Source of the DNA: Sulfuritalea hydrogenivorans sk43H
Lineage (GTDB): Bacteria; Pseudomonadota; Gammaproteobacteria; Burkholderiales; Rhodocyclaceae
Direction of reading: 5' to 3'
NCBI RefSeq assembly: GCF_000828635.1
Contig: NZ_AP012547.1
Location: 2,356,001-2,420,000 of the forward strand
DNA length: 64,000 nt
In this document: piece by piece, positions 893 to 59,761 of the stretch
How the letters are laid out: every line of letters begins with the position of its first letter
Numbering within the stretch: the first letter of the stretch is position 1
The notes under the pieces: model-generated
Seen by the model: only the letters and a program-made list of their open reading frames with translations
The model's database searches: none
What the model was told of the DNA's origin: nothing
Position numbers and translations under genes: made by a program

Positions 893-1978
893 CTAGCTTC
901 TGAGGTACACGCCGGCGTCATGCCGCCAGCAGACGGTGACGGCGTCGCCGACTTCGTGGAACTTGGCGCGGCCCGGCGCGGCGTTGGGCATCAGTGCCTC
1001 TATCACGCGACCGTTGGCCAGCTCGACCTTGTACAGCGTGACATCGCCCAGATACAGCAGTTCGCGCACCACGCCCTCGAAGCTGTTTTTCAGGTCGGCG
1101 GATTCCTTGTGGCCGAAGACGCGGATCAGTTCCGGGCGCAGGGCAAAGGCGCCGCGCTCGCCCACTGCGATCGGGCGCGGGTCGGTGGCGGCGATGTCGC
1201 CGAGGCCTTCCGCATGCAGGCCGAGCAGCACCTTGCTCGACGACGTCACTTCGACGTCGAGCAGGTTGATCTTGCCGATGAAGTCGGCGACGAAGCGGTT
1301 GGCGGGCTGGGTGTAGAGCTGGTCCGGCTCGTCGCATTGCTCGATGCGGCCGTCCTTCATCACGGCGATGCGATGCGACAGGGCCAGCGCCTCCTGCTGC
1401 GAATGCGTGACGAAGATGAAAGTGATGCCGACTTCGCGCTGCAGTGCGATCAGTTCGATCTGCATTTCGACACGCAGCTTGGCGTCGAGCGCGCCCAGCG
1501 GCTCATCGAGCAGCAACAGGCGCGGCTGGTTGACCAGGCCGCGCGCCAGCGCCACGCGCTGCTTCTGGCCGCCGGAGAGTTCGTGGGGAAAGCTGTCGGC
1601 CTTGTCTTCGAGATGCACCAGGGCCAGGGTTTCGCCGACGCGACGCCGTATCTCCGGCGCCGACTTTCCGGCCATCTCCAGCGGGAAGGCGATGTTGCCT
1701 GCCACCGTCATGTGCGGAAACAGCGCGTAGCTCTGGAACACGGTATGCAGCGGGCGTTTTTCCGGCGGCACGCCGGCCAGCGATTGGCCGTCGAGCAATA
1801 TCTCGCCTTCGTCCGGTTCGTCGAAGCCGGCGATCATGCGCAGGATGGTGGTCTTGCCGCAGCCCGAAGGCCCGAGCAGAGTGAAGAATTCTCCCTGCTC
1901 GATGGCGATGGAAACGTCCTTCACCGCTTCGAGCGAACCGAAGCGGCGCGTTAGGTTGCGGATTTCGAGCAGTGCCAT
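893..1978 (-). CDS. potA: Polyamine-type ABC transporter ATP-binding protein (PotA-like)
   Basis: This is the cytoplasmic ATPase that powers the adjoining permease, 361 residues. Walker A GPSGCGKTT lies at residues 36-44, the Q-loop in FQSYALF near 81, the LSGGQ signature at 134-138 and Walker B LLLLDEP at 154-160, with the switch histidine in VTHSQ. The C-terminal 130 residues form the TOBE regulatory domain typical of PotA/MalK ATPases. Residues GKSAPEI (104-110) are encoded by a copy of the 25-base dispersed repeat described below, in a loop where family members vary. It is first in the visible operon; the DHH gene upstream is separated by 61 bases with a hairpin. Confidence 0.92.
   Translation of the reverse strand: MALLEIRNLTRRFGSLEAVKDVSIAIEQGEFFTLLGPSGCGKTTILRMIAGFDEPDEGEILLDGQSLAGVPPEKRPLHTVFQSYALFPHMTVAGNIAFPLEMAGKSAPEIRRRVGETLALVHLEDKADSFPHELSGGQKQRVALARGLVNQPRLLLLDEPLGALDAKLRVEMQIELIALQREVGITFIFVTHSQQEALALSHRIAVMKDGRIEQCDEPDQLYTQPANRFVADFIGKINLLDVEVTSSSKVLLGLHAEGLGDIAATDPRPIAVGERGAFALRPELIRVFGHKESADLKNSFEGVVRELLYLGDVTLYKVELANGRVIEALMPNAAPGRAKFHEVGDAVTVCWRHDAGVYLRS
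1644..1668 (-). repeat. 25-base dispersed repeat, copy 1 (inside potA)
   Basis: It matches the window consensus at 23 of 25 bases. It lies sense to potA and is read in the frame that gives K-S-A-P-E-I. Confidence 0.8.
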
Positions 1979-2005
1979 GTCGGGTCCGCCGTTCTTCTAC
2001 CGGCG

Positions 2006-2027
2006 CCGGCAGGCGGCTGCCTGCCGG
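2006..2027. terminator. Hairpin between DHH gene and potA
   Basis: A perfect nine-base-pair stem, CCGGCAGGC against GCCTGCCGG, with a four-base loop lies just after the DHH stop codon. There is no T-run, so it may be a weak or Rho-assisted terminator or an mRNA 3'-end stabiliser rather than a classic intrinsic terminator. Confidence 0.45.
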
Positions 2028-2039
2028 TGAAGCAAACGC

Positions 2040-2990: not shown

Positions 2991-5900
2991 TCACTCGAAA
3001 GTCGGATTGTATTCCAGACTTGCCAGGATGCCATGGGCGACATAAAACACCGCCAGACGCAGCGGCAAACCATCGCCGGCGAACAGCGCGGCGTAGGACT
3101 CCAGTTGCGATTGGTAACGCGCGGCATGGGCTTGCAGGCGCGAGCCATCGGCCGCCGCACCCAGGTCGGCGGTCTTGTAGTCGATGATCCAGCGCTCGCC
3201 GTTTTCGACGAAGCTGCGGTCGACGACGCGGGTTATCGCCGTACCGCCGGCGCCGACTCCGGTCAGCGCCAGTTCGGCGGCCGCATCGGCACGGCGGCGC
3301 AGCACCCATTGGCCGTCGGCGCTGGCCAGCGTCGTCGCCAGCATCGCGGCGACGCGCGACGCGCCGGTCCGCGCATCGGCCGGCGACCAGCCGCGGCTGG
3401 CGAGCCAGCGCTCGAAGCCCGGCTGGCGCTCGGCCATGCGCTGGGGCGACCAGGCTTCCGGCTCGGCGGCGATCAGTTCCAGCACGGCATGGGCCAGCGT
3501 GCCCACCGCGGCGGCCAGCGGGTCGACGGTTTCTTCCGGCGCATCCAGTGCCGGCAACGGCAATGCAGGCGCGCGCCACTCGGACGGCACGGCCGGCGCC
3601 TTCAGGCGCATCAATTGCGGCACGAAATCCCTCAGCTCGCCGTCGAAAGCGGGAGTCGGCGCTGGCGGTGCGGCGATTGCGGCATGGAAATCCGGTTCGA
3701 CGGCCGGCCACAGCCGTGCCAGCGGCGAGGCGGCGCGCGGGGCGACCAGCGCGCCCTGCTCGTCGCGGAAGGCCACGCCCACCAGATGCAGGCGGCGCAC
3801 CGCGCGCGTGGCGGCGACGTAGAGCACGCGGGCGTCCTCGTTGCGGCTGCGCTCCTTCTCCATGCGCTGCAGGAAGTCATACACCGTCGGCTCGCCGGCC
3901 TTGCCCGCGCTGCGCCGATTCACCGGCGCGGCGACCAGGCGCTCGCCGCAGGCCAGCGGAAAGCTGTCCCAGGCCAGCAACGGCATGTCGCGCGCCGGGG
4001 TTTCGCGGTGCAGGCCGGGCAGGATCACGGTGTCGAATTCGAGGCCCTTGGCCTTGTGCACCGTCATCAGTTGCAGCAAGCCGTCGGCCTGCGCATCGGG
4101 CGCGGCGAACAGGCGGGCCATGTCGTCTTCGAGGCTGTCGAGGACGAAGCGCCCCGCCGCGTCGAGCGCGTCGAGACGATTGAAGAAGGCCTGCGCGTCG
4201 GACAGGTCGTTCGCAGCGTTCAGGCAATGGGGGCCGCCGAGCTTTTTCCAGGCGTCCTCGACCCAGCGCCGGCGCCGCTGGCGGCCCTGCCCGGCCAGCG
4301 CCTCGGCCAGCACCTCGCGCACGTGGCCCAGCCGCTGCCGGCCATCGGCCGACAGGCGACTGATGCGCTCGGCATCCTGCATCAGCGACCAGATCGTGGC
4401 CTGATGGTCGTCGCCGGCAAGCGCGTGCAGATCGGCCAGCGTCATGCCGCACCACGGCGCGCGCAGGATCGCCAGCCAATGCACGCGGTCGGCGCGGTGA
4501 TGCAGGGCGCGGGTCAGCGAGATCAGGTCCTGCACCGCCTGGCGCCCGGCCAGCGGCTCGATTTCCACGGCAGAGAAGCGCCAGCCGGCGCCATGGCGGC
4601 GAATCGCGGCGACCAGCGCCGCCAGATGCGCGCGGGCGCGCACCAGCACGGCAATGTTGCGCGTCGGGTCCTCGCGCCACTCGGCTTCGATCAGGGCGAC
4701 GATGGCTTGCGCCTCGGTGCGCTCGGCGGCGGCGCCCTCGCCCTTTTCGGCCAGCACCGGATGCATGGCGACGCCGGCCTGCGGCAGCGCCCCCCGCGTG
4801 GCGACGAACTCGCGATAGCGGATCTCGCCGCGCAGCGGATCGTCGGCGACGGGGAACACTTCGGGGAAGCAGGCATTGATCCAGTCCACCACTTCCGGGC
4901 AGGAGCGGTTGTTGCGCGACAGGCGCAAGGGTGTCAGCCGCAGCGCGCCGATGCCGATTTCGGCCACGCGCAGGAAGAGGCCGACGTCGGCCTTGCGGAA
5001 GCGGTAGATCGACTGCATCGGATCGCCCACCGCAAACAGCGTGCGACCATCCTCTGGCTGCCAGCCGGCGGTGAGGCGTTCGAGCAGCTCGATCTGCGTC
5101 GGACTGGTATCCTGGAATTCGTCGACCAGCAGGTGGCGGATGCGGTAATCGAGACGCAGGCCAAGTTCCGAGGGGTCGAGTTCGTCGCCCAGCGCCGCGA
5201 TCGCGCGCGCCGCGAGTTCGCCGAAATCGACTTCGCCGCTTTCGCGAAACACCAGCCACAGTTCGGCGGCGGCGAGCTTCATCAGTCGCGCCAGCGCGCG
5301 CACCACCTCGTCGTGGTCGTGATCGGACGCCGGCAGTTCGCGCAGACGCTGCAACGCTGCGATCGCCCGGACATCGAGCGCGGCCAGCCGTTCCAGCATG
5401 GCGTCCTTCTGCGGCTTGAATTCCTTGCCGGCGGGGAAGCCGTTGTTCACCGTCACGGTCTTGCGCGCCGTGCCTTCCTTGGTCAGCAGGAAATCGGCCA
5501 GCGCCCGCCAGCGCGGCAATTCTTCGGGCGCGGCGGTCAACGGCTCGACCCAGTCGACGAAATGGCCATCACCGAGATTGTCCGCGGCATAGCGCGCCAG
5601 CGGCATCCACTGCCGCTGCCATCCATCGTCGAGCACCCCGGCGACCAGCGCCAGTTCTTCGCCAACCATCTCGCGCAGGGCTGCGCCGATCGCCGACTCG
5701 GGATCATCGAGTTCCGCTATCGCGCGCCATTGCTCGCGCCGTGCCAGCATCTCGGCCAGCAGACGCGCCAGCCGCGCCGCGTCGTTGTCGAGGTGCGCCA
5801 GCGCCGTGGCGACCGCCTCGGCATGTTCGCGCTCTTCTTCCCCCTGGCTTTCCAGATGGTCCAGCGCGCGCCGCGCGGCTTCTTCGTAATGCCGCGCGGC

Positions 5901-6338
5901 CTCGTCGGCCACGGCCGGCTGCGCGCCGAAGCGCGACAGCAGCGGCATCTGCCGTGCCAGGCTGGCGCACAGGGCATCGATGGTGGTCAGGCGCAGCCGC
6001 CCCGGCTGGGTCTCGATCTGCCAGCCCAGTTCGCCCGATCGCGCCAGCGCCGCGCGCGCCAGCTCGAAAGTGATGCGCTTGTGCGGCTGCTCGGGCAGCT
6101 TGCCTGCGCGCGCCAGTTCGAGGCTTTCGGCAATGCGCTGGCGCATTTCGCCCGCGGCCTTGTTGGTGAAGGTGATGGCGATGATTTCTTCGGGCGCGTC
6201 GACGGTGGCCAGCAGGCGCAGGTAGCGCTGCGTCAGCAGCTCGGTCTTGCCCGCGCCGGCCGGCGCCTCGACGATGAAGGAGTCGAGTTCCAGCGCGCGG
6301 CGGCGGTTTGCCTCATCGTCGAGCAACAGGTCGTTCAT
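2991..6338 (-). CDS. AddA/RecB-like UvrD-family helicase-nuclease
   Basis: A 1115-residue superfamily 1 helicase with a C-terminal nuclease, acting on double-strand DNA ends in recombinational repair. Walker A EAPAGAGKT is at residues 24-32, motif Ia ITFTNKAA at 55-62, Walker B DEFQDTS at 406-412, and motif III GDPMQSIYRFRKADV about 30 residues later. The late motif LMTVHKAKGLEFDTVILPG marks the second RecA domain. The PD-(D/E)XK nuclease core appears near the end as VVDRSF...IIDYKT, preceded by the GTLAHAVLE helix. It overlaps the stop of the AddB-like gene by four bases (ATGA), so the two are coupled. Two copies of the 25-base repeat lie in it. Confidence 0.88.
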   Translation of the reverse strand: MNDLLLDDEANRRRALELDSFIVEAPAGAGKTELLTQRYLRLLATVDAPEEIIAITFTNKAAGEMRQRIAESLELARAGKLPEQPHKRITFELARAALARSGELGWQIETQPGRLRLTTIDALCASLARQMPLLSRFGAQPAVADEAARHYEEAARRALDHLESQGEEEREHAEAVATALAHLDNDAARLARLLAEMLARREQWRAIAELDDPESAIGAALREMVGEELALVAGVLDDGWQRQWMPLARYAADNLGDGHFVDWVEPLTAAPEELPRWRALADFLLTKEGTARKTVTVNNGFPAGKEFKPQKDAMLERLAALDVRAIAALQRLRELPASDHDHDEVVRALARLMKLAAAELWLVFRESGEVDFGELAARAIAALGDELDPSELGLRLDYRIRHLLVDEFQDTSPTQIELLERLTAGWQPEDGRTLFAVGDPMQSIYRFRKADVGLFLRVAEIGIGALRLTPLRLSRNNRSCPEVVDWINACFPEVFPVADDPLRGEIRYREFVATRGALPQAGVAMHPVLAEKGEGAAAERTEAQAIVALIEAEWREDPTRNIAVLVRARAHLAALVAAIRRHGAGWRFSAVEIEPLAGRQAVQDLISLTRALHHRADRVHWLAILRAPWCGMTLADLHALAGDDHQATIWSLMQDAERISRLSADGRQRLGHVREVLAEALAGQGRQRRRRWVEDAWKKLGGPHCLNAANDLSDAQAFFNRLDALDAAGRFVLDSLEDDMARLFAAPDAQADGLLQLMTVHKAKGLEFDTVILPGLHRETPARDMPLLAWDSFPLACGERLVAAPVNRRSAGKAGEPTVYDFLQRMEKERSRNEDARVLYVAATRAVRRLHLVGVAFRDEQGALVAPRAASPLARLWPAVEPDFHAAIAAPPAPTPAFDGELRDFVPQLMRLKAPAVPSEWRAPALPLPALDAPEETVDPLAAAVGTLAHAVLELIAAEPEAWSPQRMAERQPGFERWLASRGWSPADARTGASRVAAMLATTLASADGQWVLRRRADAAAELALTGVGAGGTAITRVVDRSFVENGERWIIDYKTADLGAAADGSRLQAHAARYQSQLESYAALFAGDGLPLRLAVFYVAHGILASLEYNPTFE
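3237..3261 (-). repeat. 25-base dispersed repeat, copy 2 (inside AddA-like gene)
   Basis: It matches at 20 of 25 bases. It is sense to the gene and read as V-G-A-G-G-T-A, just before the nuclease core. Confidence 0.65.
3651..3675 (+). repeat. 25-base dispersed repeat, copy 3 (inside AddA-like gene, antisense)
   Basis: It matches at 21 of 25 bases. It is antisense to the gene and encodes the proline/alanine-rich linker A-P-P-A-P-T-P-A. Confidence 0.7.
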
Positions 6339-9148
6339 GGGTGCTCATCCTTGGGAGCCGCCACGGACGGCGAACAACCGTCACCCCCTTTCGCGGAAAG
6401 GGGGCCGTGGGGTATGCCGTCCAATTGGCCCGCCTCGTCGAATTGCTGCTGCCGTTCGGCGACGCGCAGCAGTGCGCGCACGTCGCAGTATTCGATGTCC
6501 TTCTCGGCATCGAATACCACCGCGGCGGCGCCGTCGCGCACCTCGCGCGCGACGGCGGTAAGGCGTTGCGCCCAAAGGCTGCGCAGGGCCGGCCAATCGG
6601 GGAAATCCTCCTCCGCGTAGAGCCTGCGCTGCGCTGCGAGCGGCTTCACTTCGGGCAGCAGGCCTTCGTCCTCGCTGACGCCGAGGAAACCCGGTTTGTC
6701 CGGCGTGACGCGGGCCAGCGCCACGGCGGCCACATCGCGATCGGGAAACGCCAGCGCGGCGTAGATCGGCAGTTGCGGCTCCTTGATGCGTGCCTCGGCC
6801 CAGCTTGCGGCGGAGTCGTTGCGGCCGCTCTTGTAGTCGATCACCACCAGCCGGCCGTCGGCGAGCTGGTCGATGCGGTCGATCACGACGCGCACCGGCA
6901 GGCCTTCGATGTCGAGTTCGTGATGCTCCTCGCAGGCGATCACGCGGAAGGGCGCGCGCCTGGCTTCGACCTCCAGCCAGATTGCCAGCAAGGCCTGCAG
7001 CCGCTCGTCTTCCAGTTGCCGCAAGCGCGGCGGTAGCGGCTCGGCGGCGCGGCGGTCATGCTCCGCCAGCGCATGGGCCACCACGCGCCGGATCTCCGCG
7101 CTGCGGGTGGCGGCATCCATCCGGTTCAGATCGACGAGGCTGCGTCCGCGCCAGAACTCCTCCAGCGCGGCATGCAGCAGCGAGCCGCGCGTTCGCGCGT
7201 CGAGGCCGAAAGTCGGCGCCGGCAACACGGCGGCACCGAGCCGGTATTGATAGAAACCCCAGGCCGGGCACACCGCCTGCGCCTTCAGCAGCGCCGTGCC
7301 GCCGCGAATGTGCTCGTTCGCGCCGACCGGAGGCGCCCGCGCATCATCGATGCGCGCCAAGCCGGGCTCTTCCGCATGCGGTGGTATCGGCGCAGTTGCC
7401 AACTCGCGGCGCGATATGTTCGCCAGCAGCGGACTCGACCGCAAAGGCCGCTCGCCTTCGCGCTGCGCCCACGAAAACACCACTTCACCCGCGCTGGCGC
7501 ACCACGCGGCTTGCAGGGCTTGCGCCTCGACGGCAAGGCTGTCGGCGCGGGCGGCAGAGATGCCGGCGCGACGCTGCAACTCGGCGGGCAGCAGCGGATT
7601 TGGACGCGGCGCCGGCGGCCAGGCGCCTTCGTTGAGCCCCATGACCCAGAGCGCATCGACGGCGCCGGCCAGCGCATCGTCCACAGTGCAAACCTCGATC
7701 CGCGCCACAGTGCGACGCGGCGGCTCGAAGGCGTGGTCGCGACACTGCCGCTGCAACTGGCGCAGGGCTTCGCCGGCATCGACCCGGCCCATGACGGCGT
7801 CCAGCGCCAGCAGGCCGCCCAGGCCTTCGCGCAATTTATCGCAGGCCGCGCGTTCGGCAACGAGCAAGGCGCGTTGCCCGGGCCAGCCGAGCGCCGCCAG
7901 CCACTCGCCGAAGCTCTTGCCCCAGGCCGACGGCGCTTGCCGGCGCGGCGCACGCCTTGCGGCTTCGAGCAGCGCGCCGAGATGCGCCACCAGTTGCGGC
8001 GCCTGCAGGCGCAAGGCCGGGTCGGCGCAGAGGCGGCCGACGCCGCGCTGCAAGCGTTCGAGGCTGGTTTCGGGTGGCAGCAATTCGCGCAAGCCGGCCT
8101 CGATGCGGGCGCGGGCATCGGCTTCGTCAACATCGGCCGACCAGCCTGTTCCGCAGAGCAGGGCGCCGAATTCGACCTGCGCCACGCGCTGCGAATGCAC
8201 CAGCACTTGCAGCAGGCGCAAGGCGACATCGACCAGCGGCTCGGCTGCCAGCGGGGACCCGGCGACGAAGGCATGATCGCGCTCCTGCGCGACCCACCCG
8301 GCGCCCACCGCGCCGGGATGGAGCACATCGTCGAGCGCGGCTTCGAGCAGCCGCCGGCGTACCTGCAGGTCGGCGACGGCGATGCGAACGCGAGTCGAGG
8401 CGTCGCGCGCCAGCCAATCGCGCGCCCACTTCGCGGCATCCATGCATTCAGCTTCGGCATCGGCCAGTTCGGCGCCCGCCGCAGGCACGGTTTCGCCACG
8501 GGCGAAGTCGAGTTGGAACAGCTCGACGCCGCGCGCCTCCAGCACCACCAGCAGGCGCGAAATCATCGGATCGGGTGCAATGAAGCCGGCAATGCCGATC
8601 CGCGCCGGCAGGCCGCCGATGCCGCGCTCGATGCACTCGATGCGCCAGGCCAGCGTTTCGTCCGCCGTGCGCCAGCCGCCGACCCGGCAGGCCTCGGCCA
8701 CTTTTTCCCGCCAGCGCCGGAAGGCGCGGTATTCCTCGGTTTGCAAGGCGTCGGCCACCTCGATGCGCCACGCGCGCTCCAGATTCGCCGCCTCCATCGC
8801 GGCCAGCGCCATGCCCTCGCGGTCGAACAGTTCCGCCGCCGCGCCGGCATCGGTGGCGATGGCCTGCTCCCACAGGCTGCGTTCCTGCGCCCGGGTGAGG
8901 AAAGCGCCGGGCACGCCAGCCGGGGGAATTTCGCCGCGCAGCAGCGCGCCGGACGTAACGTGATCGAGCCACTGCGCCGGCGTCGCGCTCTGCAGCGCCT
9001 GCCAGGTGACGGCGCCACGCGCGGCCTGCAATGCTCCATGCGCCCGCCGCAGGCTGCCCGCCAGCCGCGCCGTGGCGCACAGCACCACCGGCTCCGGACC
9101 TCCGCGCAGTTCGGCCAGATTTACTTCGGGCAGATCGGGACGAATCAT
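6335..9148 (-). CDS. AddB-like PD-(D/E)XK nuclease, probable DNA repair protein
   Basis: This 937-residue protein resembles the betaproteobacterial 'probable DNA repair protein' family that pairs with AddA-like helicases in place of AddB. The N-terminal half is a diverged helicase-like scaffold with no intact Walker A. The C-terminal nuclease has GSLLHAALEEF, then VIDRIDQ and VIDYKSG, giving the D...D-x-K catalytic set. It is translated immediately upstream of the helicase gene with an ATGA overlap, so the two products very likely form one complex. The last 25 or so residues (from DGIPHGP) are glycine/proline-rich and are encoded by a perfect hairpin sequence at 6384-6404, which looks like an added tail. 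Confidence 0.82.
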   Translation of the reverse strand: MIRPDLPEVNLAELRGGPEPVVLCATARLAGSLRRAHGALQAARGAVTWQALQSATPAQWLDHVTSGALLRGEIPPAGVPGAFLTRAQERSLWEQAIATDAGAAAELFDREGMALAAMEAANLERAWRIEVADALQTEEYRAFRRWREKVAEACRVGGWRTADETLAWRIECIERGIGGLPARIGIAGFIAPDPMISRLLVVLEARGVELFQLDFARGETVPAAGAELADAEAECMDAAKWARDWLARDASTRVRIAVADLQVRRRLLEAALDDVLHPGAVGAGWVAQERDHAFVAGSPLAAEPLVDVALRLLQVLVHSQRVAQVEFGALLCGTGWSADVDEADARARIEAGLRELLPPETSLERLQRGVGRLCADPALRLQAPQLVAHLGALLEAARRAPRRQAPSAWGKSFGEWLAALGWPGQRALLVAERAACDKLREGLGGLLALDAVMGRVDAGEALRQLQRQCRDHAFEPPRRTVARIEVCTVDDALAGAVDALWVMGLNEGAWPPAPRPNPLLPAELQRRAGISAARADSLAVEAQALQAAWCASAGEVVFSWAQREGERPLRSSPLLANISRRELATAPIPPHAEEPGLARIDDARAPPVGANEHIRGGTALLKAQAVCPAWGFYQYRLGAAVLPAPTFGLDARTRGSLLHAALEEFWRGRSLVDLNRMDAATRSAEIRRVVAHALAEHDRRAAEPLPPRLRQLEDERLQALLAIWLEVEARRAPFRVIACEEHHELDIEGLPVRVVIDRIDQLADGRLVVIDYKSGRNDSAASWAEARIKEPQLPIYAALAFPDRDVAAVALARVTPDKPGFLGVSEDEGLLPEVKPLAAQRRLYAEEDFPDWPALRSLWAQRLTAVAREVRDGAAAVVFDAEKDIEYCDVRALLRVAERQQQFDEAGQLDGIPHGPLSAKGGDGCSPSVAAPKDEHP
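6384..6404. repeat. Perfect hairpin inside the AddB-like C-terminal tail
   Basis: CCCCCTTTC (6384-6392) pairs perfectly with GAAAGGGGG (6396-6404) around a three-base loop. It lies within the coding sequence, about 50 bases before the stop. Confidence 0.6.
7208..7232 (+). repeat. 25-base dispersed repeat, copy 4 (inside AddB-like gene, antisense)
   Basis: It matches at 22 of 25 bases and is antisense to the gene, encoding A-A-V-L-P-A-P-T-F. Confidence 0.75.
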
Positions 9149-9868: not shown

Positions 9869-11221
9869 TCATGGGATGAGCCTGTCGTCCCTAGTCAGCA
9901 ATTCGGGCGCCTGCACGTCGCGCGGCAGCGCCTCGACCGGATTCAGGTCGGCGATTTCCTTGTCCTCGCCGGCCACCTTGAGGTCGCGGAACTTGCGGGC
10001 GGAGACGAGGACGCGCGTCTCCATCGAGGCCACCGACTTGTTGTAGGCGCCGACCGCCTCGCCGAGGTTCCTGCCGACGCGGCCCCAGTGCTCGGTCACC
10101 GTGGCGATGCGCTCGTACAGCTCCCGCCCGAGCAGGCTGATGCGCTCGGCGTTCTCGGTCAGCGCCTGCTGCGTCCAGCCATAGGCGACGGCGCGCAGCA
10201 GCGCGATCAGTGTGGTCGGCGTGGCGAGGATGACGCGCGCATCGACCCCGGCCTCGATCAGCGAGGGGTCGGCTTCCAGCGCCGCCGAATAGAACATTTC
10301 GCCGGGCAGGAACAGCACGACGAAATCGGGCGAAGGCTGGAACTGCTCCCAGTAGGCCTTCTGGCCGAGCTTTTTCAGATGGTCGCGCACCTGCCGCGCA
10401 TGGTCGAACAGCTTGCGCTTCTTCTCTTCCTCGTCGCTCGCTTCCAGCGCTTCGAGGTAGGCGGCCAGCGGCGCCTTGGCGTCGACCACGATGTTCCTGC
10501 CGCCGGGCAGCTTGACGATCATGTCGGGGCGCAGGCGGCCGTCTTCGGTGGTGGTGCTTTCCTGTTCGAAGAAGTCGCAGTGGTCGAGCATGCCGGCCAT
10601 TTCGACCACGCGCTTGAGCTGCAGCTCGCCCCAGCGGCCGCGCGTCTGCGGCGCACGCAGGGCCTTGACCAGGTTGCCGGTCTCCATGCGCAGGGCGCCC
10701 TGCGCCTCGGCCATGGCGCGCACCTGTTCGGTCAGCGTGGCGTAGGCATCGACCCGCGATTTCTCGATGCCCTGGATCTGCTGCTCGAATTTCTCCAGCG
10801 AAGTCTTGACCGGCGCCACCAGTTCGCCGATGGCGAGCTGCCGCTTGTCGAGATCGGTCTTCGCCGATGCCAGCGCCGCCGCCTGCTGCGCCTCCAGCGT
10901 AGCGCGCGCGAGTTCGAGGAAGGACTGGTTGTTCTTCGCCAGCGCGTCGGCGGAGATCACCTTGAAGGCGTCGGCGAAGCTGTCGCGCGCGGCTTCGAGC
11001 GTGGCCTGGCGTTCGGCGAACAGCGCCTGGTCCTTTTCCAGTTCGGTTTGCAGCGTGGCGCACCGTACCGCCAGCGCCGACTCCCGGCCACGCAAGGCCG
11101 CCAGTTCGCCTTCCTGCGCCGCCAGCCGCGCCTGCGCTTCCTTCAGACGCGCGGCGAGAACCACGGCGACCAGTCCGCCGCCGATCAGGAGTCCAACCAC
11201 CAATGCAATGCCGATTTCCAT
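9869..11221 (-). CDS. rmuC: DNA recombination protein RmuC
   Basis: A 450-residue RmuC homologue, a restriction-fold protein that limits inversions at short inverted repeats. An N-terminal membrane anchor (residues 4-24, IALVVGLLIGGGLVAVVLAA) is followed by a long coiled coil to about residue 165. The RmuC nuclease-like domain then shows RGRWGELQL, LPGGRNIVVDAKAPL and ATPTTLIALLRAVAYGW. Length and order are normal. A copy of the 25-base repeat encodes residues ESALAVR in the coiled coil, a place where sequence is not constrained. Confidence 0.9.
   Translation of the reverse strand: MEIGIALVVGLLIGGGLVAVVLAARLKEAQARLAAQEGELAALRGRESALAVRCATLQTELEKDQALFAERQATLEAARDSFADAFKVISADALAKNNQSFLELARATLEAQQAAALASAKTDLDKRQLAIGELVAPVKTSLEKFEQQIQGIEKSRVDAYATLTEQVRAMAEAQGALRMETGNLVKALRAPQTRGRWGELQLKRVVEMAGMLDHCDFFEQESTTTEDGRLRPDMIVKLPGGRNIVVDAKAPLAAYLEALEASDEEEKKRKLFDHARQVRDHLKKLGQKAYWEQFQPSPDFVVLFLPGEMFYSAALEADPSLIEAGVDARVILATPTTLIALLRAVAYGWTQQALTENAERISLLGRELYERIATVTEHWGRVGRNLGEAVGAYNKSVASMETRVLVSARKFRDLKVAGEDKEIADLNPVEALPRDVQAPELLTRDDRLIP
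11061..11085 (-). repeat. 25-base dispersed repeat, copy 5 (inside rmuC)
   Basis: It matches at 21 of 25 bases. It is sense to the gene and read in the frame giving E-S-A-L-A-V-R, a third frame relative to copies 1 and 2. Confidence 0.7.
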
Positions 11222-41715: not shown

Positions 41716-43512
<1,797 letters not shown>

Positions 43513-46142: not shown

Positions 46143-46631
46143 ATGACGACCCCGACCAAGACCTACAAATACTACTGGGAAGATTTCCCCGCCGGCAGCG
46201 TGCGCGAGTTCGGCGGCAAGACCATGACCGCCGAAGAAATCATGGATTTCGCCCGCCAGTTCGACCCGCAGCCCTTCCATCTTTCCGAGGAAGCCGGCAA
46301 GAACAGCCTGTTCGGCGGCCTCTGCGCCAGCGGCTGGCATACCTGCGCGCTGGCCATGCGCATGATGTGCGACGCCTACCTGCTGGAATCGGCCAGCCTC
46401 GGCTCGCCGGGGCTGGAAAACATCCGCTGGCTGAAGCCGGTGCGCCCCGGCGACACCCTGCACGTGCGCTCCGTGGTGCTCGAAGCGCGCCCGATGGACA
46501 GCAAGCCCCATGTCGGCCTGTTGCGCACGCGCTGGGAGATGATCAACCAGAACAACGAGGAAGTGATGCAGATGGAAGGCTACGGCATGTTCCGCCGGCG
46601 CGACGTGGCGAAACCAGACGCATCCGCATGA
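46143..46631 (+). CDS. MaoC-family dehydratase
   Basis: A 162-residue hot-dog hydratase. FARQFDPQPFHLSEEAGKNSLFGGLCASGWHTCALAMRM carries the D-x4-H pair and the FGGLCASGWHT loop of the MaoC family. It probably hydrates a 2-enoyl-CoA, giving the (R)-hydroxyacyl isomer. AAGGAAAGC precedes the ATG. Its stop overlaps the ligase start by four bases (ATGA), so the two are co-translated. Confidence 0.85.
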   Translation: MTTPTKTYKYYWEDFPAGSVREFGGKTMTAEEIMDFARQFDPQPFHLSEEAGKNSLFGGLCASGWHTCALAMRMMCDAYLLESASLGSPGLENIRWLKPVRPGDTLHVRSVVLEARPMDSKPHVGLLRTRWEMINQNNEEVMQMEGYGMFRRRDVAKPDASA

Positions 46632-51229: not shown

Positions 51230-52156
51230 ATGAAGAAACCATTGATCATGCTGATGCTGCTGGTATCACACGGCACCTTCGCCCAGGGCCGATTGCCGGC
51301 GTGCCCGGGTGCATACGGTACCGACTGGAGCAACTGTTCCGGAACCGACATTTCGCCGAACGGCGACCGCTACGTCGGCGACTTCTGGAACGGCATGCGC
51401 CACGGCCAGGGCAGCTATGCGTGGACCAGCGGCGACAAGTACACCGGCGAGTTCAGGAACGATGCCCGCAACGGACAAGGGACGCTGATATCGGCCAACG
51501 GCGACCGGTATGCGGGCCAGTTCAAGGACGACCAGTTTCACGGACAGGGCACCCTGACCTCGGCCAATGGCGACAAATACGTCGGCGAATTCAAGAACCA
51601 CCAGCGCGACGGCAAAGGCACCCTCGTCTCCGCCAAGGGCGACAAATACGTTGGCGAATTCAGGAACGACCGCTTCAACGGGCAAGGCACCCTCACCTCC
51701 GCCAACGGCGACAAATATGTCGGCGAGTTCAGGGACCACCAGCGCAACGGCAAGGGCACCTACACCTGGCCCAATGGCAACGTCTATGTCGGCGAATTCC
51801 GGAACGACACGCGCAACGGACAAGGCACCCTGACCCTATCCAGTGGCGAGAAATATGTCGGCGAGTTCCGGGACGGCGCACGCAACGGACAAGGCACCCT
51901 GAGCTTCCCCACCGGCAACAAGTACGTCGGCCAGTTCAAGGACGACAAGCGCCACGGCAAGGGCACCCAGACCTCGCCCGATGGCCACAAGTACACCGGC
52001 GACTTCAGGGACGACAAGTTCAACGGGCAAGGCACCCTGAGCTTCCCCAATGGCACCGAGTACGTCGGCGAGTTCAGGGACGGCGTGCGCAACGGGCCGG
52101 GGACGGAATACCGTGCCGACGGTTCGGTCCTCAGATCAGGAATCTGGCAGGAATAA
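51230..52156 (+). CDS. Secreted MORN-repeat protein
   Basis: A 308-residue protein with a signal peptide (residues 1-19, cut after FA-QG likely). Eleven tandem 23-residue units follow, each of the form Y-x-G-E-F-x4-R-N-G-Q-G-T-L with G-D-K between units. Each unit is 69 bases, and neighbouring units are very similar in DNA, which suggests recent expansion. MORN arrays bind lipids or proteins; bacterial secreted ones are poorly known. The unit count may vary between strains. It is transcribed away from the flanking genes and convergent with iclR. Confidence 0.83.
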   Translation: MKKPLIMLMLLVSHGTFAQGRLPACPGAYGTDWSNCSGTDISPNGDRYVGDFWNGMRHGQGSYAWTSGDKYTGEFRNDARNGQGTLISANGDRYAGQFKDDQFHGQGTLTSANGDKYVGEFKNHQRDGKGTLVSAKGDKYVGEFRNDRFNGQGTLTSANGDKYVGEFRDHQRNGKGTYTWPNGNVYVGEFRNDTRNGQGTLTLSSGEKYVGEFRDGARNGQGTLSFPTGNKYVGQFKDDKRHGKGTQTSPDGHKYTGDFRDDKFNGQGTLSFPNGTEYVGEFRDGVRNGPGTEYRADGSVLRSGIWQE

Positions 52157-52189
52157 AACGGTGCGCTCCGATGCGCGGTCGCATGGAAC

Positions 52190-53989: not shown

Positions 53990-55420
53990 CTATGCGGATT
54001 GGGCGCGTTGCCCGCGACCGGTCATCATCCAGGCGGGTATCAGGGCCAGACAGTAAACAACGGCGATCAGGAAGAAGCCTTCCTGCATCGGCTGCAGACC
54101 ATGCACGGCATTCAGCTGCCGCTCACGTCCTTCGAGGAACAGCGCCAGCAGCGTGACGCCGAGCGCGCCGCCGAGCTGGCGAAAGAAATTGATCGAGGCC
54201 GAGCCGGCGGCCTCGGTGCCGCGGGGCAGCAAGCGCAAGGCACCGGCATTCAGCCCCGGAATGATCAGCCCGAGGCCGACGCGGCCGATCGCCACCCACA
54301 GCGCCAGCAGCCAGAAACCCGTGACGGCGGAAGACAGGCCCATCAGGATGGCCGAGACGGAAAAGAAGGCCAGTCCCGCCATCGCCACGCGGTTCGACGG
54401 AAAACGATCGGCCAGGCGTCCGGCGAGCAGCAGCACCACGGCCAGCACCACGCCGCCCGGCACCAGCATCATGCCGGCTTCATAGGCCGAAAAGCCGGCG
54501 CCGATCTGGGCGAAGATCGGCGCCAGATAGGTCGAGCCGTAAATGCCGATGCCATAGGCCAGCGCCACCAGCACCGCCGCGCCGAAGCCGGCCTCGCGGA
54601 AGATGCTGAAATCCAGCAAGGGATGCAGCGTGCTGCGCTCCCACACGACAAAACCCAGGGCCAGCGCGACGCCGAGCGTGACCGCGGCGGCGCCCAGCAT
54701 CGGCTGCCGGATCAGCGCCGCCAGCCCGCCGAGCAAGGCACACAGCGCCGCCACCACCAGCACCAGGCCGATCGCGTCGAAGGGGCGCTTGCTCGCGCCC
54801 GGCAGGGGCCGGCCCGCAATCACGAAGCGCGGCGCCAGCGCAATGGCGGCAAGGCACAGCGGCACGGTGACGAGGAACACCGCGCGCCAGCCGAAGTGGT
54901 CGACCAGCAGGCCGCCGGCCACCGGGCCCACGGCCGGCGCCAGCACGATGCCGAGGCCGTAGGCACCCATGGCGCGGCCGCGTTCCTGCGACGGAAAGAC
55001 GTCGATGATGACCAGCATCGCCAGCGGCTGGATCAGGCCGGCAATGCTGCCCTGCCCGATGCGGCACAGCGCCAGCAGTTCGAAACGATCGGTCAGCGCG
55101 GCGAGCACCGAGAACATCACCAGCAACGCCAGCGCGCCGACATAGGTGCGCCTCACGCCGAAGCGCTGCATGGCCCAGGTGGCCAGCAGCATCGAGGCCG
55201 TGGTGGCGGCGAGGAAGCCGGTGGACAAAAGCTGCACCTGGTCGTGGCCGACCTGAAAGACGCGGATGATTTCCGGCAGTGCGACATTCACCACCGTGGC
55301 TTCCATGATCGCCGAGACCGTGCCCAGCATCACGGTGAGTACGGCCCACCAGCGGTAGTTCGAGCCGTGGCGGTCGAACATCGCGGCCACCTCGGCCTGA
55401 CGCTGATCGCTGGCGTTCAT
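53990..55420 (-). CDS. MFS transporter, 14-helix DHA2 (EmrB/QacA) type
   Basis: A 476-residue major facilitator with 13-14 hydrophobic segments. The motif LSTGFLAATTASMLLATWAMQRFGVRRTYVGAL and GPVAGGLLVDHFGWRAVFLVTVP (motif C of drug:H+ antiporters) are present. The ATG at 55420 overlaps the ligase stop (ATGA). In this operon it may import the acid that the ligase activates or export a toxic intermediate; direction is not shown by sequence. Confidence 0.86.
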   Translation of the reverse strand: MNASDQRQAEVAAMFDRHGSNYRWWAVLTVMLGTVSAIMEATVVNVALPEIIRVFQVGHDQVQLLSTGFLAATTASMLLATWAMQRFGVRRTYVGALALLVMFSVLAALTDRFELLALCRIGQGSIAGLIQPLAMLVIIDVFPSQERGRAMGAYGLGIVLAPAVGPVAGGLLVDHFGWRAVFLVTVPLCLAAIALAPRFVIAGRPLPGASKRPFDAIGLVLVVAALCALLGGLAALIRQPMLGAAAVTLGVALALGFVVWERSTLHPLLDFSIFREAGFGAAVLVALAYGIGIYGSTYLAPIFAQIGAGFSAYEAGMMLVPGGVVLAVVLLLAGRLADRFPSNRVAMAGLAFFSVSAILMGLSSAVTGFWLLALWVAIGRVGLGLIIPGLNAGALRLLPRGTEAAGSASINFFRQLGGALGVTLLALFLEGRERQLNAVHGLQPMQEGFFLIAVVYCLALIPAWMMTGRGQRAQSA

Positions 55421-57003
55421 CGCTGACCGACCCCGGCGCCGGCGGCCATCTGGCGCAGCTGGTTCTTCAGTATCTTTCCCGTCGCCGTCGCCGGCAGGTG
55501 TTCGAGCAGTTCGATGTGCGAGGGAATCTTGTAGGGCGAGAGGCGCTCGTGCAGCCAGGCGGCCAGCGCCTGCGGCGCGAGGCTGCGGCCCGGCACCAGC
55601 TCGACATAGGCCACCACTTCCTCGTTGCCCGGCACATCGCGTCCGACCACGGCGCAATGCACGACGTCGGGATGGCTGTTGATGGCCTGCTCGACCTCGA
55701 TCGGATAGACGTTGAATCCGGAGCGGATGATCAGCTCCTTGGAGCGCCCAACGATGAACAGCGCACCGTCCCCGCCTTCCTCCTGCTCCTGCCGCGCCAG
55801 ATCGCCGGTGTTGAGCCAGCCCTCGGCATCGACCGCCTCGCGCGTGAGTTCCGGCGCCTTGTAGTAGCCCTTCATGACGCCGGGCCCGCGCACGTGCAGC
55901 TCGCCGACCTCGCCCGGCGCAACATCGGCACCATCCTTGACGATGCGGATCCCGATGCCGGGAATCGGCGGCCCCACCGAGCAGTCGCGGCGCGGCGCAT
56001 CGAGCCGCGTCTGCGCGATCGAGGGCGATGCCTCGGTCATGCCGTAACCGTTGTGCAGGGTGATCCCTACCGCCGCCTCGAAATCGTCCTTGAAACTCTG
56101 GTCCAGCGGCGCGCCACCGCCCTGAGCGATGCGCAGGGCCGGCGCGCACAGGCGATTGCCGGGGCGCCGGCCCCATTCCAGCAGCTTGGCGTACATCGCC
56201 GGCACGCCGTGCAGGATGGTGACGCGGCCTGTCTCCAGCGCCGCCGCCACCGCGGCCGGTTCGAAACGCGGCGCCAGCACGAGGCTCGCTCCCGCGTGCA
56301 GCGCCGACAGGGCCATGGTCGCCAGGCCATAGATATGCGACAGCGGCAGCACCGCATACACCCGGTCGGCCGGGGTCTGGCGCCGCATGCAGCGGCCGTT
56401 CTCGGCGATGAACAGCAGGTTGCGATGGGTGAGCATGACGGCCTTGGGCGCGCCCGAGGTGCCCGAGGTGTAGATCAGCGCTGCAACCTGTTCGCCGTCC
56501 GCAATAGTCGGCTCTGGCGCAACGGCGATGTTGGCGCTGGTGAGGTGGAAGCGGCCGCAGCCGGGCCAGTCGACTTCGGCCGCGCCGAGGCGTTGCGCGT
56601 GCGCTTCGGCTTCGGGCGAAACCGCGCTGGTGAACACCACGAGACGCGCGCCCGAATGATCGACGAAAGTATCGATCTCGCGTTGCGACAGGCGCGCATT
56701 GATCGGCACCAGCCAGGCGTCGAGCCGGCTGCAGGCCAGCGCCAGCACCACGACCGGAATGCTGTTCTCGGCCACCAGCAGCAGGCGGTCCCCCGCGCGC
56801 AGGCCCAGTTGGGTTAAACGGCGGGCTGCCTCGCTGGCCGCCGCATCGAGTTGGCCGAAGCTCATCACAGTCCCGCTCTGCAAGAGTGCGGGCGCGTCGG
56901 GCTGGCGGCTCACCCAGGGCTCGATGATCTGATGGATGCGCCGCGGCAAGTCGCCGCGCGGAACAAACGCGGGGCCGGACGGCAGAGCGGAAGATGCAGT
57001 CAT
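55417..57003 (-). CDS. AMP-forming acyl-CoA ligase
   Basis: A 528-residue adenylate-forming acid:CoA ligase. The P-loop LIYTSGTSGAPKAVMLTHRN, GYGMTEASPSIAQ, NTGDLARQEQEEGGDG...RSKELIIRSGFNVYP and the catalytic Lys in TATGKILKNQLR are intact. The start used is ATG 57003, giving MTASSALPSG; an upstream extension in the same frame has no family likeness. It heads the operon with MFS, nitronate monooxygenase and IclR genes, divergent from the second dehydrogenase operon. A degenerate copy of the 25-base repeat lies in it. Confidence 0.88.
   Translation of the reverse strand: MTASSALPSGPAFVPRGDLPRRIHQIIEPWVSRQPDAPALLQSGTVMSFGQLDAAASEAARRLTQLGLRAGDRLLLVAENSIPVVVLALACSRLDAWLVPINARLSQREIDTFVDHSGARLVVFTSAVSPEAEAHAQRLGAAEVDWPGCGRFHLTSANIAVAPEPTIADGEQVAALIYTSGTSGAPKAVMLTHRNLLFIAENGRCMRRQTPADRVYAVLPLSHIYGLATMALSALHAGASLVLAPRFEPAAVAAALETGRVTILHGVPAMYAKLLEWGRRPGNRLCAPALRIAQGGGAPLDQSFKDDFEAAVGITLHNGYGMTEASPSIAQTRLDAPRRDCSVGPPIPGIGIRIVKDGADVAPGEVGELHVRGPGVMKGYYKAPELTREAVDAEGWLNTGDLARQEQEEGGDGALFIVGRSKELIIRSGFNVYPIEVEQAINSHPDVVHCAVVGRDVPGNEEVVAYVELVPGRSLAPQALAAWLHERLSPYKIPSHIELLEHLPATATGKILKNQLRQMAAGAGVGQR
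56513..56537 (+). repeat. 25-base dispersed repeat, copy 12 (inside ligase, antisense)
   Basis: It matches at 20 of 25 bases, including AGTCGGC, CTGGCG and ACGGCG. It is antisense to the gene, giving A-P-E-P-T-I. Confidence 0.55.
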
Positions 57004-57517: not shown

Positions 57518-57519
57518 CA

Positions 57520-58674
57520 ATGGATCTGCAATTCAGTCCCGACGAAAATGCCTTCCGCGAGGAAGTGCGTCGCTTCGTCGCCGAGAAACTGCCCTCGCCG
57601 ATCCGCGACAAGGTGATGAACGGCGCCCATCTGAATCGCGACGAACACGTGCAATGGCAGCGTATCCTGCACCAGCGCGGCTGGGGCGGCCCCGGCTGGC
57701 CCAAGGAATTCGGCGGCCCCGGCTGGACGCCGACCGAGCAGTACATTTTCGAAGAGGAGTGCGCGGCGGGCGGCGCGCCGCGGCTGATTTCCTTCGGCCT
57801 CAAGATGATCGCGCCGGTGCTGATGGCCTTCGGCAGCCCCGCGCAGCAGCAGCGCTATTTGCCGAAGATCCTGGCGGCCGAGGAATGGTGGTGCCAGGGC
57901 TATTCCGAGCCGGGCGCAGGCTCCGACCTGGCCTCGGTGAAAACCCGTGCGGTACGCGAAGGAAACCACTACATCGTCAACGGCCAGAAAACCTGGACCA
58001 CGCTCGGCCAGTATGCCGACTGGATTTTCTGCCTGGTCCGCACCGACCCCGAGGCCAAGAAGCAGAGCGGCATTTCCTTCCTGCTGATCGACATGAAGAC
58101 GCCGGGCGTCACGGTGCGCCCGATCATCACGCTCGACGGCGCGCACGAGGTCAATGAAGTCTGGCTCGAAGACGTCAGGGTACCCGTCGAAAACCTGATC
58201 GGCGAGGAGAACAAGGGCTGGACCTATGCCAAGTTCCTGCTCGGCCACGAGCGCACCAACATCGCCGGCATCGGCATCGCCAAACGCGAACTGGCGCGCC
58301 TGAAGCGCATCGCCGAAGCCGAAGGCCGCCTCGACGATCCGCTGTTCGCCGCCCGCGTGGCGCAGGTCGAGATCGACCTCATCGCGCTGGAGATCACCAA
58401 CCTGCGTGTGCTCTCCGCCGAACGCACGAAGAAGGCACCGGGGCCGGAAGCCTCGATCCTCAAGATCAAGGGCACTGAAATCCAGCAGGCCATCGCCGAG
58501 CTGATGATGCAGGCCGTCGGGCCCTACGCCCTGCCCTTCAGGCAGGCTGATGTCGGCCCCGATTACGCAACCAACCTCGCCACCGGCTACTGCAACCAGC
58601 GCAAGCTGTCGATCTTCGGCGGCTCCAACGAAATCCAGAAGAACATCATCTCGCAGATGATCATGGGGCTCTGA
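57520..58674 (+). CDS. Acyl-CoA dehydrogenase, large subunit type (PimC-like)
   Basis: A 384-residue paralogue of the protein at 39254, with very similar sequence throughout. WWCQGYSEPGAGSDLASV, GQKTWTTLGQYADWIFCLVRTDP and EVWLEDVRVPVENLIG are the FAD and substrate segments. The C-terminal SIFGGSNEIQKNIISQMIMGL again has Gly at the MCAD glutamate position. It forms the large half of a heteromeric dehydrogenase with the next gene, one base away. Substrate unknown. Confidence 0.87.
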   Translation: MDLQFSPDENAFREEVRRFVAEKLPSPIRDKVMNGAHLNRDEHVQWQRILHQRGWGGPGWPKEFGGPGWTPTEQYIFEEECAAGGAPRLISFGLKMIAPVLMAFGSPAQQQRYLPKILAAEEWWCQGYSEPGAGSDLASVKTRAVREGNHYIVNGQKTWTTLGQYADWIFCLVRTDPEAKKQSGISFLLIDMKTPGVTVRPIITLDGAHEVNEVWLEDVRVPVENLIGEENKGWTYAKFLLGHERTNIAGIGIAKRELARLKRIAEAEGRLDDPLFAARVAQVEIDLIALEITNLRVLSAERTKKAPGPEASILKIKGTEIQQAIAELMMQAVGPYALPFRQADVGPDYATNLATGYCNQRKLSIFGGSNEIQKNIISQMIMGL

Positions 58675-58675
58675 C

Positions 58676-59761
58676 ATGGACTTCGACTTCAACGAAGATC
58701 AACGCGCGCTGGCCGACACGGTGCAGCGCTTCGTGACAAAAGACTACACATTCGAGAAGCGCCGCGCCATCCTCGATTCCGGCGCCGGCTGGAGCCGCAC
58801 GGTCTGGCGGGAACTGGCCGACCTCGGCGTGCTGGCGCTCACCATCGACGAGGACCACGGCGGCCTCGGCTACGGCCCGCAGGAAACCGGGCTGGTGATG
58901 GGCGCGTTCGGCGCCGGCCTGCTGCTGGAACCGTATCTGGCCAGCGCGGTGATCGCCCCGGCGCTGATTCGCCGTATCGCCAGCGCCGACTCTCAGGCCG
59001 AATGGTTGCCACGAATCGCTGCCGGAGAAAGCATCGTGATACTCGCCCATGCCGATGCGCGCGGCGAGATGGTCACAGAGAAGAGCGGCAAGCTCAACGG
59101 CCGCAAGGCCGTCGTCACCCACGGCGCCTGCGCCGACCTGCTGCTGGTTTCGGCGCGAACCGCCGACGGCGATACCGGCCTTTTCGCCGTCACGCCGGAC
59201 GCGGAGGGTGTCAGCTTGCGCGACTATCCGACGCTCGACGGCCAGCGCGCGGCCGACCTAGTGCTGAGCAATGCGCCCGCCTGGAAAGTCGGCGCTGGCG
59301 ATACGGCGAATGCCATCGACGCGGCCCTCGACATCGGCCTCGCCGCCCTGTGCAGCGAAGCCGTCGGCGTCATGGAAGCCACCGTCGCCGCGACCACCGA
59401 TTACCTCAAGACGCGCCAGCAGTTCGGCCAACCGATCGGCCGCTTCCAGGCGCTGCAACACCGCATGGCCGACATGCTGCTGCATCTGGAGCAGGCGCGT
59501 TCGATGAGCTATCTTGCCGCCATGCATTGCACCAGCGAGGACGCGTCCGCGCGCCGGCGCAGCCTCTCGGCGGCCAAGGTGACGATCGGCCAGGCCTGCC
59601 GCTTCATCGCGCAGAACGCGGTGCAATTGCACGGCGGCATGGGCATGACGGACGAATTGATGCTCAGCCACTGGTTCAAGCGCCTCACCGCCATCGAAAT
59701 GTCGTTCGGCGACACCGACGCGCATTTGCAGCGCTTCGCCAGACTGAGCCGCGCCGCGTGA
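58676..59761 (+). CDS. Acyl-CoA dehydrogenase, small subunit type (PimD-like)
   Basis: A 361-residue partner subunit, paralogous to the protein at 40465. MDFDFNEDQRALADTVQRFVTKDYTFEKRR, YLKTRQQFGQPIGRFQALQHRMADM and AVQLHGGMGMTDELMLSHWFKRL are shared. It holds two copies of the 25-base repeat: one antisense (LIRRIASADS), one sense (KVGAGDTA), both in loops where the paralogue differs. Its stop overlaps the GTG start of the next gene. Confidence 0.86.
   Translation: MDFDFNEDQRALADTVQRFVTKDYTFEKRRAILDSGAGWSRTVWRELADLGVLALTIDEDHGGLGYGPQETGLVMGAFGAGLLLEPYLASAVIAPALIRRIASADSQAEWLPRIAAGESIVILAHADARGEMVTEKSGKLNGRKAVVTHGACADLLLVSARTADGDTGLFAVTPDAEGVSLRDYPTLDGQRAADLVLSNAPAWKVGAGDTANAIDAALDIGLAALCSEAVGVMEATVAATTDYLKTRQQFGQPIGRFQALQHRMADMLLHLEQARSMSYLAAMHCTSEDASARRRSLSAAKVTIGQACRFIAQNAVQLHGGMGMTDELMLSHWFKRLTAIEMSFGDTDAHLQRFARLSRAA
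58970..58994 (-). repeat. 25-base dispersed repeat, copy 13 (inside small-subunit gene, antisense)
   Basis: It matches at 24 of 25 bases and is antisense to the gene, giving R-R-I-A-S-A-D-S. Confidence 0.88.
59284..59308 (+). repeat. 25-base dispersed repeat, copy 14 (inside small-subunit gene, sense)
   Basis: It is identical to the consensus and sense to the gene, read as K-V-G-A-G-D-T-A. It lies 290 bases from copy 13 and in the opposite orientation. Confidence 0.9.

Follow-up and report, generated by a model that had tools for sequence, protein, structure and literature searches.

A 26-base repeat dispersed through the Sulfuritalea hydrogenivorans genome and its likeness to DNA uptake sequences

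The closest described counterparts of the repeat reported here are the DNA uptake sequences (DUS) of the Neisseriaceae and the uptake signal sequences (USS) of the Pasteurellaceae. A 2025 paper gives known uptake motifs a length of 9–12 nt and names these two families as the only ones with such motifs (PMC12616744). DUS form lineage dialects within the Neisseriaceae (PMC3630211), and predicted horizontally transferred DNA in Neisseria is described as poor in them (PMC2397512); USS likewise occur as dialects (PMC12616744), and those of Haemophilus influenzae were shown by Redfield and colleagues not to be insertions, using the type of gap test applied below (PMC1626085). Here we describe S, a 26-base word with the own-genus consensus GAAAGTCGGCGCTGGCGnnACGGCGA, which is dispersed through the genome of Sulfuritalea hydrogenivorans sk43H, a member of a genus placed by the NCBI taxonomy under Betaproteobacteria, Sterolibacteriaceae. 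The repeat was noticed, as a 25-base sequence in 14 copies, during a first-pass annotation of one stretch of 64,000 nt (bases 2,356,001–2,420,000 of NZ_AP012547.1), hereafter the window.

That S is repeated genome-wide is confirmed. The complete genome (3,802,648 bases) contains 328 copies at up to 3 mismatches in 26 (166 forward, 162 reverse) versus 0 + 0 for the reversed control; at up to 2 mismatches to the 20 specified core bases the number is 683, split 343 and 340 by strand, so both orientations are used as first described. Finer counts were made in a 464-kb sample comprising the window and 20 stretches of 20 kb. Over 21 informative positions, this sample holds 29, 28, 27, 8, 3, and 11 copies at 0, 1, 2, 3, 4, and 5 mismatches, respectively, whereas the first matches of a Markov control appear at four mismatches (4, followed by 20 at five) and those of a reversed control at five (6); the S family is therefore clearly distinct from background. 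Within the window, 13 full-length copies lie at 0–5 mismatches in 26, one at 6 (25021), and one at 7 (45762), compared with none at up to 5 and one at 6 in an order-4 Markov control of 4 × 64 kb. A 13-base core at up to 2 mismatches is found 35 times in the window against 7.2 expected, and 0 of 100 shuffles reach 35. All 14 places originally named hold S or a broken form of it, 13 of them within one base of the position given; the copy assigned to 56513 in fact occupies 56503–56528, and a copy at 25021–25046 (+) and a weaker relative at 45762–45787 (−) had been overlooked.

S carries about 35 bits of information and has sharp borders at 26 bases, followed by a weak preference for T at the next two positions. 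Its identity to its own reverse complement is 6 of 26 positions, or 10 at the best shift. Dyad symmetry and terminal inverted repeats, which mark insertion-type elements such as Rickettsia palindromic elements (RPE), miniature inverted-repeat transposable elements (MITE), and repetitive extragenic palindromes (REP), were not found in S. A hairpin of S itself, formed by an imperfect 5-bp stem between positions 10–14 and 21–25, was considered and rejected for want of fold or covariation support: the fold z-scores of five dialects were −0.99, 0.07, −0.23, 0.72, and −2.58 (four of five ordinary), and pairing between the columns does not exceed that of shuffled columns. Linkage between variants is mostly absent (p<0.01 for 3 of 91 position pairs) and too weak to define subfamilies, and 86 of 94 copies are distinct from one another.

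Copies of S were aligned to orthologous sites in G016, a motif-poor congener, and in other genera of the family, with both flanks anchored. Orthologues were recovered for 24 sites of 124 copies (31 rows), of which 18 rows at 17 sites had anchors ending within 20 bases of the motif and were kept; the 13 rows with more distant anchors, set aside, differed by −85, +6, +138, −3, +2, −1, 0, −3, −6, +6, −18, +12, and +5 bases. G016 is still S-like in two of the 18. The 16 S-lacking comparisons (15 sites, mostly coding; 12 against G016 and four against genus g3) include 13 of equal length, with differences of −3, +21, and +104 bases in the other three, and the gap of about 26 bases expected from insertion of S is present in none of them. 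Since these orthologues are mostly of equal length and show no such gap, S arises by substitution in place: at the tested, mostly coding sites, the alignments indicate that it was apparently made by ordinary mutation and not pasted in. Insertion with clean borders, one of the possibilities raised at first pass, finds no counterpart at these sites. An earlier all-against-all run of 230 S-lacking pairs, which stem from few sites, gave 86 pairs differing by 0, 33 by −3, 105 that were longer (mostly insert-bearing versions of one site), and 6 that were shorter by 6–43 bases.

Where both orthologues carry S, the core is 0.950 identical, versus 0.794 in the 40 flanking bases and 0.763 at the variable positions, and the core is more conserved than the flank at 14 of 14 sites. 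At 10 sites with an equal-length orthologue lacking S, the 40 flanking bases are 0.705 identical and the wider anchors 84.6%, which fits the earlier impression that coding copies fall in variable loops or linkers.

The 464-kb sample contains 92 copies at up to 3 core mismatches, 55 coding and 37 intergenic. A location mostly inside genes therefore holds by number, yet intergenic DNA, about 14% of the sampled sequence when the 86% coding share is that called by a simple gene finder, is about four times denser in S. Intergenic regions between convergent genes, 7.7 kb in all, have 11 copies, and the other intergenic types 25 in 45.4 kb. All six reading frames are used, as had been claimed, but very unevenly: 22 of the coding copies lie in sense frame 2 (read as KVGAGxTA), 15 in antisense frame 1, eight each in sense frame 1 and antisense frame 2, and one in each of the other two. 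Orientation does not follow GC skew across the sampled stretches, where 39 copies are on the G-rich and 53 on the C-rich strand; a replichore polarity of the kind known for Chi or FtsK-orienting polar sequences (KOPS), the subject of a check proposed at the outset, was rejected.

At ordinary G+C content, copies per 20-kb bin vary less than a Poisson distribution would predict (index of dispersion 0.35, P 0.008, 17 bins). The six stretches with a G+C fraction below 0.60 contain seven copies in 120 kb and the remaining stretches plus the window 85 in 344 kb, which corresponds to 1.17 versus 4.94 copies per 20 kb (P 1e-5). Three of the 20 sampled stretches are free of S, and two of these hold mobile genes: one encodes TraN and HipA proteins, another an IS66 transposase, an integrase, and a RecD2-type helicase, while the third, of low G+C content, carries sulfatase and GMC oxidoreductase genes. 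Scarcity in recently acquired DNA, a mark of DUS and USS, is likewise seen for S.

Surveys of the family (395 genomes, 68 genera) and of the order (399 genomes) found S abundant in seven of the 68 family genera sampled. In the own genus, 22 of 23 sampled members are S-rich (279–670 copies), G016 having 35; at up to 3 mismatches, G016 gives 8 matches and the other 29 congeners 40–337. Genus g32 is S-rich in 18 of 19 genomes (213–721), with 0 copies in G655, an assembly 87% complete. All genomes of g36 (four; 255–512 copies) and g215 (nine; 242–403) are S-rich, as are single genomes of g166 (736) and g192 (721), and g199 shows 65 copies, its variant base being scored as a mismatch by the search pattern. 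Other family genera have 0–16 copies, except for one g179 genome with 35, and in the order survey counts above 6 are confined to the own genome, g32, and g36. A tree did not resolve the placement of G016 among the motif-rich species.

Each of the seven genera has a distinct consensus, or dialect, built from 7–95 copies, the samples outside the own genome being small at 7–25 copies per genome. The dialect of g32 is AAAAGTCGGCGCTGGCGGGACGGCAC and that of g166 AAAAGTCGGCGCTGGCGGGACGGCGG; g36 has T or C at position 13, g199 A at position 9, and g215 T at position 16, and the g192 form ends in GA. Two g32 genomes share private deviations in copies that are apparently orthologous; together with the unlinked variants and the distinctness of most copies, this indicates that S copies evolve site by site. 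A position weight matrix run on genus g3, which is motif-free, settled on an unrelated word and was discarded, and no substitute word as frequent as S was found in samples of 20–172 kb from motif-poor relatives. A sample from one genome of a related genus (G035; L197–L200 and L031) contains another dispersed repeated word, around TCTTTGCGAGGAGCG.

The exact 26-mer also occurs in 62 stretches of a named-species collection, all metagenome-assembled. Their titles are mostly Sulfuritalea, Rhodocyclaceae, Rhodocyclales, or Betaproteobacteria, and the set includes seven from one Burkholderiaceae metagenome-assembled genome, two from Rugosibacter, one from Sulfuricella, and one labeled Pseudomonadota. 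Sporadic copies at 0–2 core mismatches, often a few kb apart, are found in other families in genes for HlyD-type, proton-antiporter, nitrate-reductase-delta, and mannose-phosphate proteins; one lies in a possibly mobile gene of the DUF3987/primase type, and gene transfer from S-rich donors would account for these copies.

The exact S core was further detected in at least 120 stretches of viral contigs. Eighty of these, a sample chosen for carrying a copy, hold 119 copies in 712 kb, and ten proteins from six viral stretches all match phage families, for example, terminase, primase, RecT, and integrase. GG is the commonest ending of the viral copies, as in genus g166. The exact word of the own genus is in no viral contig analyzed, a set from which records very near the window's genome may be excluded, and named phages and plasmids gave no full-length match. 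Six phage stretches (L217, L246, L251, L216, L283, and L288) carry three to six copies each, with all six in L217 lying between called genes, and the viral stretch L235 has five copies at a spacing of mostly 316 bp.

S shares with DUS its abundance, its occurrence in both orientations, an origin in place, conservation, scarcity in acquired DNA, lineage dialects, and loss or lack in single species; it therefore most likely biases the uptake or exchange of DNA. The chance that S is a third, much longer uptake-type self-motif of the DUS kind is, in our judgment, about even. S would then be a genome-wide self-recognition motif acting like a DNA uptake sequence: a DNA-binding factor, in the simplest case a type IV minor pilin capturing DNA in natural transformation, would prefer S-bearing DNA, and imported alleles with S would displace their resident counterparts through homologous recombination. 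Mutations toward S would be favored wherever protein or intergenic sequence tolerates them, until S stood about every 4 kb in ordinary DNA. We infer that uptake is the sequence-specific step, a pilin the receptor, and transformation the drive; S may instead bias another step of exchange between relatives. Among the three origins proposed at first pass, a DNA-uptake-type signal is the best supported, while a mobile micro-element tolerating coding insertion is contradicted wherever the alignments allow a test.

As described in the papers cited above, DUS resemble S in having many coding and intergenic copies, few of them in acquired DNA, in being highly conserved in permissive places, and in forming dialects. 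The difference is that DUS have about 10–12 bases and thousands of copies, whereas S has 26 bases and hundreds, and that the receptor (ComP) and role of DUS are established, while the role of S is proposed here on comparative grounds. USS, too, were reported to arise by substitution in place by the same type of gap test (PMC1626085) and to have dialects, but they consist of a 9-base core with an A+T-rich extension, unlike S, which is rich in G+C, keeps rigidly to 21 positions, and belongs to another family.

Several observations weigh against an uptake-type role. At 26 bases and about 35 bits, S is unusually long and informative for an uptake motif. Known uptake sequences are described as accumulating gradually (PMC1939737), in contrast with the lack of intermediates for S, no excess of copies at 4–6 core mismatches being seen in the 464-kb sample. 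Closely spaced inverted pairs of the terminator type, frequent for DUS, were not seen for S, the closest inverted pair in the 464-kb sample being 254 bp apart. S is carried by phage contigs; its scarcity at low G+C content may follow from composition alone, as S is itself G+C-rich; and the 230-pair run included one pair at −23 and three at −42 or −43. The candidate machinery offers no receptor. ComEC is present in 17 of 17 genomes scanned, S-rich or not, and so does not discriminate; GspH-type pilins occur in 30 of 31 genomes of the genus, including G016; and the ComEA model TIGR00426, whose sensitivity for this family is not established, has no match in the own genome. This model scored above cut-off in 3 of 25 genomes, and most of its matches fall in open frames near 800 aa, which are probably not ComEA. 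None of GspH, ComEC, and ComEA separates motif-rich from motif-poor genomes. Finally, open-licence full texts yielded no paper on transformation or competence in Sulfuritalea or on an uptake sequence in its family, nor one for the motif letters or for Sulfuritalea together with an uptake sequence; the three papers retrieved for Sulfuritalea and repeats bear unrelated titles. At first pass, too, no described family with this sequence was known to the annotator.

The window itself illustrates the range of contexts in which S occurs. Exact copies stand at 31106–31131 (−), in intergenic DNA just before gene 31137–31898(+), and at 59284–59309 (+), in the acyl-CoA dehydrogenase gene 58676–59761(+), where S is read as WKVGAGDTA. 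The first site has S in three congeners (G004, G012, and G003) and 120 extra nt inside S in G023; at the second, the sequence of a congener (L042) is equally long and lacks the motif. The same dehydrogenase gene carries an antisense copy at 58969–58994 (−; 1/26 mismatches), and another acyl-CoA dehydrogenase gene, 41716–43512(+), contains a copy at 42837–42862 (+; 1/26). The histidine kinase gene 23006–25765(−) has one copy at 23281–23306 (−; 2/26) and, antisense, the overlooked one at 25021–25046 (6/26, three in the core). A copy at 1643–1668 (−; 3/26) lies in the ABC-transporter ATPase gene 893–1978(−), whose orthologue in another genus (G032) has the same length without the motif.

Three copies are found in two adjoining genes, a UvrD-helicase/PD-(D/E)XK nuclease gene at 2991–6338(−) and a PD-(D/E)XK gene at 6335–9148(−), which together span 2991–9148 and which we take to resemble AddA/AddB. 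These are at 3236–3261 (−; 5/26; G016 orthologue of the same length with 6 core mismatches), at 3651–3676 (+; 4/26; antisense, G016 orthologue 21 nt longer and without the motif), and at 7208–7233 (+; 4/26; antisense, G016 orthologue of the same length with 5 core mismatches). In the RmuC gene 9869–11221(−), the copy at 11060–11085 (−; 5/26) is kept as S-like sequence in G016 (3 core mismatches). A copy at 56503–56528 (+; 5/26) is antisense in the AMP-binding enzyme gene 55417–56949(−). The S-like sequence at 34439–34464 (−; 4/26) lies in the HD domain of the RelA/SpoT gene 32547–35657(−); congeners including G016 have nearly the same bases there, and conservation of the protein may be its source. 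At the weak site 45762–45787 (7/26), several congeners are S-like; in others the bases are unrelated, the length being the same or greater by 12. The intergenic copy at 39073–39098 (+; 5/26) precedes gene 39254–40462(+). Among 17 congeners with both anchors, six are S-like here, with the sequence downstream of S no longer alignable, and 11 are not, eight of which gave almost no intervening sequence.

Two further features of the window were noted. Paralogous acyl-CoA dehydrogenase-type blocks at 39473–41540 and 57739–59712, about 18.2 kb apart, are 73–83% identical in pieces. Ten tandem copies of a 69-nt (23-residue) unit, 60–74% alike over the 265-nt repeat compared, occupy 51288–52173, a region open in several frames.

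At some sites, S is interrupted by other DNA. The copy described as split at 48010 is indeed S with about 36 extra bases in its middle, a composite (M) at 48010–48071 (+) in which a hairpin element divides S at its variable dinucleotide; it lies in the called gene 46628–48232(+) and reads in frame as RVGAGSLCVPGNPLRGQATA. This 36-nt hairpin element, GCTTTGCGTACCTGGAATTCCGCTTCGCGGGCAGGTA, and its variants sit at the variable dinucleotide (positions 18–19) in six of seven copies of the own sample. The hairpin-in-S criterion behind this count is a loose one, satisfied by 897 of 5000 random window positions (18%). It also held for six of eight copies from other congeners, of which four represent a single orthologous site, and for one of three in G016. 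At the 42837 site, eight of 16 congeners have S or near-S (G005, G010, G012, G017, G018, G025, G027, and G030); five carry extra DNA inside S, namely the hairpin (G022, G007, and G009), the reversed hairpin (G015), or another insert (G006); and three (G028, G023, and G021) are without the motif. Further insert types of 21–120 nt, several with short inverted repeats, lie inside S in L112, L135, L071, L142, L167, L050, L074, and L100. Insertion of an element at such a motif has a precedent in Neisseria, where the integrative and conjugative element ICENmu uses DUS sites as insertion hot spots (PMC7371117). The hairpin family exists outside S as well, and G016 contains tandem arrays of the 36-nt unit (L175, L176, and L177); the L175 array is flanked by seemingly decayed motif halves, hinting at secondary loss of S in this species. 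Hairpin-bearing versions at the same site had suggested that S might be a two-ended element in its closed form; this idea was dropped because S-lacking orthologues are mostly of equal length and the hairpin family also occurs outside S.

A possible, though unlikely, alternative to an uptake-type signal is that S is the binding site of a protein for chromosome organization, recombination, or segregation, evolving in place for even spacing and acquiring dialects through drift of the protein. Spacing more even than Poisson (0.35, P 0.008) speaks for such a site, as does the missing ComEA match in the own genome, and in-place origin with core conservation fits any bound site. Chromosomal motifs thought to evolve in place, such as Chi, KOPS, parS, matS, and the highly iterated palindrome HIP1, are shorter, palindromic, or strand-polarized. 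S is neither short nor palindromic nor strand-polarized: the missing replichore polarity separates it from KOPS and Chi, and its low symmetry from parS and matS. About 35 bits would exceed what a binding site needs, and near-absence from G016 with absence from the 87% complete G655 would be surprising for an essential site of chromosome architecture.

Templated rewriting, in which a short DNA or RNA copy anneals to partial matches and overwrites them without a change in length, for example by ectopic short-tract conversion or from a reverse-transcribed single strand, is doubtful. The high information content, sharp borders, few intermediates, and mostly unchanged length are what it would produce, and S is exchanged for S plus hairpin at the same site in several congeners. 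These features have to be set against the evidence for evolution site by site, namely the mostly unlinked variants (3 of 91), the 86 of 94 distinct copies, and the private deviations shared by apparently orthologous g32 copies. No template locus emerged, although no search was aimed at one. Should this improbable account be right, S would be the first known word of about 35 bits written in place at hundreds of unrelated sites, from templates with genus-own dialects, with hairpins and temperate phages riding along.

RPE, REP and the bacterial interspersed mosaic elements (BIME) they compose, and enterobacterial repetitive intergenic consensus (ERIC) sequences are short dispersed repeats, some tolerated in genes, that are insertions and mostly palindromic. 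That S is a mobile micro-element of this kind, spread by transposition like RPE or REP/MITE, is very improbable. Its high copy number and sharp borders would suit such an element, as would its presence in both orientations, in phages, and sporadically in other families; so would the insertion-type hairpin relatives in the same genomes and the single pair at −23 among 230. At the tested, mostly coding sites, however, S is neither insertion nor palindrome: 13 of 16 S-lacking orthologues have equal length, and none lacks about 26 bases. Its weak inverted repeat is backed by neither fold nor column pairing, no decay tail of copies is seen, and the low-G+C stretches, two of them with mobile genes, are poor in S. 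The 36-nt hairpin found inside S is closer to these elements. An origin of the whole family in chance, codon usage, or conserved protein sequence, for which the copy in the conserved RelA/SpoT stretch at 34439 is the one argument, is refuted by the genome-wide (328 versus 0 in the reversed control) and 464-kb control counts, by intergenic and antisense copies, and by the other residues found at these sites in distant orthologues, with 34439 as a possible exception, and its probability is negligible.

If S is an uptake-type self-motif, a third lineage, environmental (freshwater) and with a motif twice as long, would allow the rise, dialect shifts, and loss of such signals to be compared. G016 and G655, motif-poor within motif-rich genera, are natural knock-outs for a receptor search. 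If S does not serve uptake, there is no ready explanation for a 35-bit word that is made at hundreds of sites without being inserted.

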